A stretch of DNA of 28,008 nt, taken from positions 1 through 28,008 of IMG/VR virus record IMGVR_UViG_3300033153_004559; one strand, given 5' to 3'. Source of the stretch: a virus. A program made the translations under genes and the position numbers. Shown one piece after another: positions 23,044 through 24,878 of this stretch; position 1 is the stretch's first letter; each line of letters begins with the position of its first letter. Below the pieces are notes generated by a model. That model was not told the DNA's origin. It saw nothing but the letters and a program-made list of their open reading frames with translations, and did not search any database.

Positions 23044-23168
23044 TAGAGGTAACCCCGTGGCGGGGTGCATGGTGAGCGGTCACCAGCCTCTATTCAATTA
23101 TGACAATTATGTCATAAGCTGAGTGATCTTGGATTTAAAACTCATGTGGTGTGGTGTTGCCGAGATCA
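23044..23168 (+). ncRNA. Cluster of hairpins before tRNA-Met
   Basis: TAGAGG (23044-23049) pairs with CCTCTA (23087-23092) around two hairpins, ACCCCG/CGGGGT and GGTGA/TCACC. Then ATGACA/TGTCAT (23100-23115) and TGATCT/AGATCA (23124-23168). Role unknown; they may be processing signals or small RNAs in the tRNA transcript. Confidence 0.45.
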
Positions 23169-23186
23169 TTCACCTTAAAACGTAAT

Positions 23187-23262
23187 GGGCATTTAGTTCA
23201 GTTGGCAGAACCTTTGGCTCATAACCGAAATGTCGGGGGTTCAAATCCCTCAATGCCCACCA
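23187..23262 (+). tRNA. tRNA-Met (CAT)
   Basis: Complete cloverleaf: acceptor GGGCATT/AATGCCC, D-stem GTTC/GAAC with GG in the loop, anticodon loop CTCATAA, T-loop TTCAAAT, discriminator A and encoded CCA. The 1-72 pair is G-C, so it is an elongator Met, or an Ile tRNA if the C34 is modified to lysidine. Confidence 0.95.
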
Positions 23263-23313
23263 TAGTTTTAGTGTCAGAACATTTATTTATTAATTTTATT
23301 GAGGAGCAATAAA

Positions 23314-24069
23314 ATGAGTGGGAGTCGTTTACACCAAATTCTGGCGGTTGAGTCAGACCTTGAAGGCAAATATAAAAGAACTTGCGAGGAAACAAAGAAA
23401 ACTTTTGGCAAAGCAGCCATGTTCACCGGAGCACACCGTAAGCTGGTATCCTTCGATGACTCAGATAAAACAGAATGGCCTGAAGAGAATCAAGCCATGA
23501 CCACCACTGTTCATGAACGCATGGACTTCACTGGTGATGTTATCAGCAAATATTTTGATGCCCTGTTTCAGAAAGAAGCTACCAATCAGCATGCATCAGC
23601 CGACCTTATGGTTGATGGTGTTTCACTGGGTATAGCACTTCCTGCTACGTTTTTGCTTGCATTAGAGTCACGTTTGAAGTATGTACGTACAGTTTATGAA
23701 GCCCTGCCTACCCTGCAAGCTGGTATCGACTGGGAAAAGGCTGAAGATAAAGGTGAAGATGTTTGGCGAATGAAACACCCTGAAGAGAAAATCAAAACCA
23801 AAATGACTTTCAAGTCTCAGGTACTGGTTGAGCCTACTGAACACCACCCTGCCCAAATTGAAAAATGGGAAGAGCAGGTACCAGTTGGTAAATTTGTCAA
23901 GAACGTATGGTGCAGTATGATCACCTCCCATGAGAAGTCACAAATTCTTGGGCGTATTGATAAACTCCTTCAGGCTACCAAGCAAGCACGACAGCGTGCT
24001 AATGCCCAGGAAATCATTAAGGGTAATATTGGCAAAGCTGTTGTTGATTTTATCAACAGAGGCGTATAA
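23314..24069 (+). CDS. Conserved phage protein of unknown function (DUF7873-like)
   Basis: 251 residues from ATG 23314, GAGGAG at 23301-23306 (a start upstream of the RBS is rejected). The beginning MSGSRLHQILAVES, then AMFTGAHRKLV, LPATFLLALESRLKYVRTV and a HPAQ segment near residue 190 resemble a family found in many tailed phages. I associate it with DUF7873, but cannot confirm this here. A long helix closes the protein (IDKLLQATKQARQRANAQEI). Function unknown. It lies alone between tRNA groups. Confidence 0.75.
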   Translation: MSGSRLHQILAVESDLEGKYKRTCEETKKTFGKAAMFTGAHRKLVSFDDSDKTEWPEENQAMTTTVHERMDFTGDVISKYFDALFQKEATNQHASADLMVDGVSLGIALPATFLLALESRLKYVRTVYEALPTLQAGIDWEKAEDKGEDVWRMKHPEEKIKTKMTFKSQVLVEPTEHHPAQIEKWEEQVPVGKFVKNVWCSMITSHEKSQILGRIDKLLQATKQARQRANAQEIIKGNIGKAVVDFINRGV

Positions 24070-24075
24070 TACTGT

Positions 24076-24170
24076 TGGAAACTGATAATGACTCTACGGC
24101 GATTAGGCTCCCCACTAAGTTACGAGAGCATTTGTTGGTACACTGGGGAGATGTACCCGCTCAGTTTCCA
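24076..24170 (+). ncRNA. Tripartite RNA fold closed by a 10-bp stem
   Basis: TGGAAACTGA (24076-24085) is the exact reverse complement of 24161-24170. Within it are TAAT/ATTA, a GGCTC...GAGAGC region, and GGTACA/TGTACC. The outline is tRNA-like, but there is no TTC T-loop and no CCA. It directly precedes tRNA-Gln. Confidence 0.5.
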
Positions 24171-24177
24171 TTAACAC

Positions 24178-24259
24178 AGGGGGTTGGCGAAGTTTGGCTC
24201 AACGCACCGTCCTTTGACGTCGGCATATGTCGCAGGTTCAAATCCTGCACCCCCTTCCA
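24178..24259 (+). tRNA. tRNA-Gln (TTG)
   Basis: Acceptor AGGGGGT/ACCCCCT, D-arm GCG/CGC with GG, anticodon loop CTTTGAC, T-arm GCAGG TTCAAAT CCTGC, CCA encoded. The anticodon stem has one T-T mismatch and the variable loop is eight bases. A weak 1-72 pair is in keeping with Gln identity, but the discriminator is T. Confidence 0.88.
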
Positions 24260-24260
24260 T

Positions 24261-24337
24261 GCAGGTGTAAGCAAATTGGTATCGCTAAGTGACTTAAAAT
24301 CACTTGAATCTCAGTTCAAGTCTGAGCTCCTGCACCA
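24261..24337 (+). tRNA. tRNA with TAA anticodon (Leu), short variable loop
   Basis: Acceptor GCAGGTG/CTCCTGC (one T-T), T8 A9, D-arm AGC/GCT, anticodon arm AGTGA CTTAAAA TCACT, five-base variable loop TGAAT, T-arm CTCAG TTCAAGT CTGAG, A, CCA. The anticodon reads UUA (Leu), but bacterial Leu tRNAs have a long variable arm, absent here. One base separates it from tRNA-Gln. Confidence 0.88.
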
Positions 24338-24343
24338 AAATTT

Positions 24344-24421
24344 AGATGTACTTAGTGAGGTTATGTCTGAGCTAAGTGCATCTTTGAGAACGTCAGGTGT
24401 GCGTGGGTAGGGCGTTCTCAA
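24344..24421 (+). ncRNA. Two long tandem hairpins
   Basis: AGATGTACTTAG (24344-24355) pairs with CTAAGTGCATCT (24372-24383), 12 bp with one G-U. TTGAGAACG (24384-24392) pairs with CGTTCTCAA (24413-24421). They follow tRNA-Leu by six bases. No U-run, so not ordinary terminators. Confidence 0.5.
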
Positions 24422-24439
24422 GCAGTTTATGAGATATAT

Positions 24440-24512
24440 GGTGCTGAATGAGGGCAACACACTTTGGTGGTCGCTGACGAGGCCTTACCGCCATAGATGG
24501 TTGCTTAACACC
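24440..24512 (+). ncRNA. Nested stem RNA
   Basis: Three co-axial pairings enclose one another: GGTG/CACC, GGCAAC/GTTGCT, GGTGGT/ACCGCC (24466-24471 with 24487-24492). From here to the tRNA-Tyr (24513-24606) I see only weak TGCC/GGCA pairing and no gene. Confidence 0.4.
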
Positions 24513-24606
24513 TGTAAATTAATCAGTGTGAAAATGCTGAGGAGTGCCCAGGAGTATTCAATTACCCAGTGTGGCAGGAATGAGTGCCTAAGTATCTCAT
24601 AATTAT

Positions 24607-24694
24607 GGAGCGGTGCCGGAAATGGAAAACGGACAGGACTGTAAATTCTGAGGATGCATTAGCATTGGAGGATCATACCCTCCCCGCTCCACCA
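24607..24694 (+). tRNA. tRNA-Tyr (GTA) with unusual T-loop
   Basis: Acceptor GGAGCGG/CCGCTCC, D-stem CCG/CGG, anticodon arm CAGGA CTGTAAA TTCTG, class II variable arm with ATGC/GCAT, T-stem GGAGG/CCTCC, A, CCA. The T-loop is ATCATAC instead of TTCRANY, lacking T54 and A58. Confidence 0.85.
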
Positions 24695-24730
24695 TTTTTA
24701 TTTAAAGCAACAAAAATACTACATTACTTA

Positions 24731-24759
24731 TTGACAGCATTTATAGGGTGTGGTATATA
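24731..24759 (+). promoter_or_regulatory. Sigma-70 promoter inside the tRNA region
   Basis: TTGACA 24731-24736, 17-base spacer, TATATA 24754-24759 with TG before it. No protein gene follows for 490 bases, so its product is the structured RNA/tRNA transcript ending at the 25206 terminator. Confidence 0.8.
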
Positions 24760-24794
24760 TAGCATATAAACAATAAGTAAATAACAAGTTTTTA

Positions 24795-24878
24795 TATTTG
24801 GATAGTGTTAGTGTTAGTTTCTGATGTCAGTATTAAGCGATTCCGATAAGGGTCGTATATCAGTCTTTTGTCCAAATA
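24795..24878 (+). ncRNA. Structured RNA closed by TATTTGGA stem
   Basis: TATTTGGA (24795-24802) pairs with TCCAAATA (24871-24878). Inside, CTGAT/ATCAG and a CGAT/GTCG hairpin. The closing stem is acceptor-like, but no tRNA loops are present. First element transcribed from the 24731 promoter. Confidence 0.45.

Follow-up and report, generated by a model that had tools for sequence, protein, structure and literature searches.

An RNA element with a circularly permuted tRNA-like domain, linked to DUF7873 genes in phages

The bacterial Y RNA YrlA contains a circularly permuted tRNA-like domain, and Ro60/Rsr is bound by its basal stem (PMC11472068, PMC8394870). An element of comparable anatomy is present in IMG/VR virus record IMGVR_UViG_3300033153_004559, of which positions 1 to 28,008 (28,008 nucleotides, hereafter the window) were analysed. 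Like YrlA, this element has a permuted tRNA-like domain with the T-arm before the D-arm, and its anticodon arm is replaced by a stem leading to the putative protein-binding part. Unlike YrlA, it adjoins a gene of the DUF7873 family rather than a TROVE gene, lacks the GTTGCGA basal motif, has an extra 5' domain with 6-nt repeats and mostly keeps an encoded CCA; it occurs as two tandem domains in actinobacterial-type loci, and it scores below the YrlA cut-off. The element, in which permuted order, pairing, tertiary covariation, DUF7873 linkage and 6-nt repeats are all evident at the sequence level, suggests a new kind of RNA-protein system that mimics tRNA.

The RNA element occupies approximately 24795-25092 of the window (Table 1). 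The gene order of its tRNA-like domain is reversed: the T-arm, acceptor 3' strand and CCA come first, and the acceptor 5' strand and D-arm follow 79 bases later. The acceptor strands pair at 7/7 positions across the reversed halves, as they also do in relatives. Outside the halves lie the GAGC/GCTC stem and then helix P (GACTTGCTA/TAGTAAGTC, 9 bp), which is compensated in a relative, L002 (GATTTGCTA/TAGCAAATC). A covariance model from which the window was left out finds 24924-25074 with 48.7 bits (E = 2.4e-13), whereas tandem-tRNA junctions score at most 28 bits in the window and less than 40 bits in related loci with the same model. The region has no Megablast match among phage records, and a search with a conserved 19-nt pattern of the permuted element retrieved nothing beyond the known relative L002. 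At 24870-24960, a weak tRNA reading in ordinary order (18.6 bits; Rfam cut-off 29) shares the 3' half of the permuted domain and is possibly an alternative fold of it. Elsewhere, an orphan tRNA 3' half with an encoded CCA and the acceptor strand TCCAAGG is located at 23003-23041, between an HU gene and a tRNA-Met; no clear 5' half was found on either side.

Table 1. Positions in the window of the DUF7873 gene, the permuted RNA and its flanking signals.
Feature	Position	Strand	Details
DUF7873 ORF	23314-24069	+	251 aa; Pfam PF25283, E = 2e-69
Promoter-like site	24731-24759	+	TTGACA-17-TATATA; by eye
S1 closing stem, 5' strand	24795-24805	+	TATTTGGATAG; 11 bp with 24868-24878; compensated in L002
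6-nt repeats	24799-24822	+	TGGATA GTGTTA GTGTTA GTTTCT; overlap S1 strand; family-wide periodicity
S1 closing stem, 3' strand	24868-24878	+	TTGTCCAAATA; by folding; compensated in L002
Helix P, 3'-half side	24909-24917	+	TAGTAAGTC; 9 bp with 25084-25092
Anticodon-like stem, 3' strand	24928-24931	+	GCTC; pairs with 25068-25071
tRNA 3' half	24936-24963	+	Read in sequence; covariance model
T-arm (in 3' half)	24936-24952	+	GGAGG-TTCAAAT-CCTTC
Acceptor strand (in 3' half)	24953-24959	+	ACTGGAC; then discriminator G and encoded CCA (24961-24963)
Linker, 3' half to 5' half	24964-25042	+	Strong hairpin, z = -4.4
tRNA 5' half	25043-25066	+	Acceptor GTCCGGT (25043-25049), U8, A9, D-arm
D-arm	25052-25066	+	GCAC-AGCGGTA-GTGC
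Anticodon-like stem, 5' strand	25068-25071	+	GAGC; pairs with 24928-24931
Helix P, 5'-half side	25084-25092	+	GACTTGCTA; pairs with 24909-24917
Ordinary-order tRNA, odd anticodon loop	25128-25201	+	ARAGORN (no amino acid called); Rfam tRNA, 48 bits
Intrinsic terminator	25206-25245	+	12-pair stem, T-rich tail

A preliminary description of this region had reported an array of five structures, each with long stems closing inner hairpins, regularly spaced between tRNAs. Each was folded and compared with 200 dinucleotide shuffles. Four folds beat the shuffles: 23044-23168 (z = -3.9; a 3-way junction and two hairpins), 24071-24172 (z = -3.3; inner hairpins under a 10-bp closing stem), 24341-24424 (z = -5.3) and 24793-24880 (z = -2.6; an 11-bp closing stem). 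The reported architecture holds only in part, as 24341-24424 consists of two hairpins side by side with no single stem enclosing several, and 24436-24516 is marginal and within chance (z = -1.95; equalled by 9 of 200 shuffles). The statement that none is a normal tRNA is correct: at all five places, ARAGORN calls no tRNA and Rfam has no match. Combined, the two programs place five ordinary tRNAs in the region (at 23187, 24178, 24261, 24607 and 25129), and the spacing of the structures is irregular. Grouping the five as one array or class is not supported: for four of them (23044-23168, 24076-24170, 24344-24421 and 24440-24512) no relative was found except one close contig, and 24440-24512 is within chance. 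The fifth, 24795-24878, is the 5' domain of the conserved RNA with the permuted tRNA-like domain, and it is here that the suggestion of a new small RNA or tRNA decoy survives. This fifth fold does show the compensatory changes that the description had proposed to look for in relatives: the window reads TATTTGGATAG/TTGTCCAAATA and L002 reads TATTGAGGTA/TGCCTCAATA. The description thus saw real structures and missed the tRNA halves in reversed order just 3' of the fifth, which belongs to them.

The promoter-like site at 24731 and the terminator at 25206-25245 bound a unit holding only the permuted RNA and one tRNA; this agrees with the earlier claim that the promoter transcribes RNAs only. The site is absent from a consensus scan because the last (sixth) base of its -10 box is A. 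The permuted RNA is predicted to be transcribed, presumably in the same transcript as the tRNA at 25128-25201. In Klebsiella phage vB_KpM_FBKp24, a promoter annotated by the depositors lies between DUF7873 and the RNA.

The DUF7873 ORF of the window scores 234 bits, compared with a Pfam gathering threshold of 27, and is a member of this family; approximately 720 bp, including other tRNAs, separate it from the RNA. Searches with DUF7873 yielded 24 and then 60 viral loci, 84 phage records, four genome loci and four actinobacterial replicons; most of the contigs are fragments. The gene is found in Rhizobium, Vibrio, Klebsiella jumbo, Arthrobacter, Gordonia, Rhodococcus, cyanobacterial and uncultured phages and also on Streptomyces and Nonomuraea replicons. 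Among 398 genomes from the phylum of G013 (a metagenome-assembled genome with a phage contig), the sole match was G013 itself. Deinobacterium chartae, a control genome for the searches, matches both DUF7873 and TROVE. The Prevotella Lak megaphages L047 and L048 have a partial DUF7873 match, with no permuted tRNA domain detected downstream.

Permuted domains were sought with a finder that looks for a T-arm, a complementary acceptor strand downstream and a D-arm. It was positive for 34 of 63 orphan T-arms but, where the T-arm came from an ordinary tRNA, for only 1 of 92. At 66 of 71 loci, drawn from diverse phages and some Streptomyces and Nonomuraea replicons, a permuted domain lies within 1.2 kb downstream of DUF7873 on the same strand, compared with 0/71 on the opposite strand and 2/69 upstream. 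Two of the five negatives (L002 and L026) do have the domain, with longer linkers: that of L002 exceeds the limit of the finder, and in L026 (6920-7500) the halves are separated by 556 nt that contain a 165-aa ORF (HNH endonuclease-like by eye), apparently an insertion in the linker. In L003, a permuted domain (4524-4603; 43.5 bits with model R1) is upstream of DUF7873, and the downstream place runs off the contig. The best covariance-model match was the DUF7873 locus in 16 of 17 phage records (mapped by contig coordinates); a further match in phage records is at G004:5343-5419 (56 bits). The linkage could mean regulation or co-inheritance instead of binding.

Across 34 aligned relatives, 97.8% of the pairs in the T, acceptor and D helices are standard. 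Changes on both sides of a pair number 160 (42 in shuffles), and the covariation score is 0.85, compared with 0.24 in shuffled and at most 0.17 in slid alignments. Because the finder selects on acceptor pairing and the T-loop, high values for these two arise partly by construction, and features outside the selection carry more weight; both the finder and the covariance model are biased towards tRNA-like halves. None of the following was used to pick matches. The Levitt pair 15-48 is G-C in 40, A-U in 39 and otherwise in 4 of 83 elements (Fisher p = 4e-21), with both states mixed across the set; A14 is present in 82/83, and CCA follows the discriminator at positions 74-76 in 57/83. An anticodon-like stem of at least 4 bp forms in 87% of elements with their own strands and in 24% with swapped strands, and the own versus swapped comparison for helix P across the family gives p = 1e-18. 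The sequences are related, so these p-values overstate independence. U33 occurs in 29/83 elements, near chance, which argues against a decoding loop, and the discriminator base is unconstrained (T 36, A 23, G 18, C 6; n = 83).

Relatives have in common a stem-closed domain, located after the stop codon of DUF7873 and before helix P; in the window this domain is 24795-24878. Its S1 stem is evident in the window and in close relatives; family-wide, the difference between own and swapped strands is modest (p = 0.003). The 5' domain is periodic across the family at lags 6 (z = 8.8) and 12 (z = 6.2), and lags 3 and 9 have no signal, indicating that this is not codon periodicity. The consensus of the repeats is GNYUYA, as illustrated by GACTGA-GACTGA-GACTGA in L078. 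A repeat-binding protein is a natural guess for such an arrangement, and DUF7873 would be the candidate. A motif common to the window and L001 (GTCAGGTGTGCGTGGGT) was discarded, its remaining matches looking like chance in coding DNA.

A Cas7-type fold for DUF7873 was also considered and rejected. Several CRISPR Cas7-type backbone proteins are among the weak top Foldseek rows (E 0.01-0.07, TM approximately 0.1), with beta-lactamases mixed in at the same level, so that these rows do not constitute a match; their coincidence with the 6-nt periodicity is a lead only. VIA-align of the DUF7873 model gave no Z over 5.2 and no convincing structural relative. In the literature covered, a partial set with few subscription papers, no paper mentions DUF7873 or describes a permuted-tRNA RNA beside it.

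The resemblance to YrlA raises the question of whether the element is a genuine Y RNA, that is, a diverged YrlA that would bind phage or host Ro60/Rsr and tether PNPase. It has the same permuted tRNA topology as YrlA (PMC11472068, PMC8394870), and the YrlA model (RF02553) matches 13 of 15 scanned DUF7873 loci, mostly over the full length, at E < 1; 10 of the 13 reach E < 0.01. These matches score 24-43 bits, however, and do not reach the Rfam gathering cut-off of 69; in the window, the Rfam scan gives no match to YrlA. TROVE (Ro60, PF05731) is found in only 1 of 23 records, some of which are fragments, and the GTTGCGA basal motif, as defined from phage Y65 alone, is found in 0/83 elements. The record with TROVE is Rhizobium phage RHph_Y65, where a TROVE-linked Y-RNA array and a DUF7873 RNA without GTTGCGA coexist at separate loci. 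Based on the sub-cut-off scores, the rarity of TROVE and the absence of the motif, we therefore describe the element as Y-RNA-like in anatomy and do not file it as a Y RNA, an identity that we consider unlikely. The array in RHph_Y65 (L035:136-1330) has eight GTTGCGA motifs just upstream of the TROVE/Ro60 ORF; several of its units hold permuted tRNA-like domains, and the unit at approximately 815 has its halves in ordinary order.

Three other readings were rejected, each on the evidence against it. Like the permuted tRNA genes of red algae and archaea, the element has its 3' half before its 5' half and often encodes CCA. Processed in the red-algal style, its flanks would be cut, the anticodon ends ligated and the linker removed to give a decoding tRNA; the elbow contacts are tRNA-like, and RtcB and a T4-type Rnl1 are each encoded in 2 of 11 records. 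Unlike those genes, the element has no conserved U33 and no constant anticodon was found, its outer flanks are paired and conserved (helix P persists beyond the would-be loop), and there is no constant ligase, most records encoding neither enzyme. With U33 near chance, the discriminator free and each ligase in so few records, a spliced decoding tRNA is distinctly improbable. Two-piece tmRNA likewise has a permuted tRNA-like domain with an intervening linker, and a related RNA would have this linker excised and its CCA end charged to act on ribosomes. The weak beta-tmRNA matches are confined to the tRNA-like part, and the best score with the Rfam tmRNA models is 23.4 bits (cut-off 84). In contrast to tmRNA, the element has a full, canonical D-stem of 3-4 bp, and its third acceptor pair is never G-U (G3-U70, the alanine identity of tmRNA), making this reading very improbable. 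A split group I intron flanking reversed tRNA exons and splicing them into a circle would also generate such an order (intron 3' part, exon 2, exon 1, intron 5' part), with helix P as an intron helix. Rfam finds no group I intron in 24700-25250, though, and the flanks, compared by eye, have no conserved core or terminal G; we give this permuted intron-exon arrangement hardly any credence. Elsewhere in the window, a weak group I intron match (15730-15920; 27 bits, cut-off 50) is near a DNA polymerase A gene, which also has a weak Hint/intein-like match.

We consider it rather probable, judging from sequence, that the permuted RNA is a tRNA mimic in a ribonucleoprotein with DUF7873, in the manner of YrlA with Ro60/Rsr. 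The phage would make a short structured RNA from approximately 24765 to 25245. Its core would be the permuted tRNA-like domain, consisting of the T-arm and acceptor 3' strand, the linker, and the acceptor 5' strand and D-arm. Where a tRNA has its anticodon loop, this RNA would instead continue through a 4-5 bp stem, then an asymmetric internal loop and finally helix P into the 5' domain, which carries the closing stem and the 6-nt repeats. The RNA would fold as a tRNA elbow and not as a decoding tRNA. DUF7873 would hold the 5' domain and basal part, leaving the tRNA end to face a tRNA-handling factor; a nuclease, RNase P, EF-Tu or an anticodon nuclease may be the target. Retention of the CCA suggests that the linker is nicked by the host enzymes that mature tRNAs; such a nick would leave a CCA end and may result in excision of the linker.

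More tentatively, and with somewhat less than even confidence, we propose that DUF7873 and the permuted-tRNA RNA form a Ro60-independent ribonucleoprotein in phages and some actinobacterial replicons, in which DUF7873 subunits are arranged along the GNYUYA repeats and a nicked, CCA-ended mimic is offered to the translation, tRNA-repair or defence machinery of the host. DUF7873, a family without known function, gains a conserved candidate RNA partner, and the small set of circularly permuted tRNA mimics is extended beyond the Ro60 Y RNAs by an unannotated element that standard tRNA and Rfam searches miss. The role of tRNA mimics for phages becomes testable in cultured phage-host pairs.

Several further features were observed in the window and its relatives. 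An int-alpA RNA match at 19442-19509 of the window is just under the cut-off (35.3 versus 35.8 bits), and an ORF at 3764-4639 contains a long acidic repeat (DDDATADDDD...). L002 has intergenic multi-branched structures closed by long stems at 9357-9480 and 9715-9835, which by eye resemble those of the preliminary description. L001 (7520-7580) and L002 (8062-8140) have in common an RNA-like stretch (AAAGCTGGAACAGCCCC ... AAGTTGG ... GCCTGT) located after a gene for a small basic protein.
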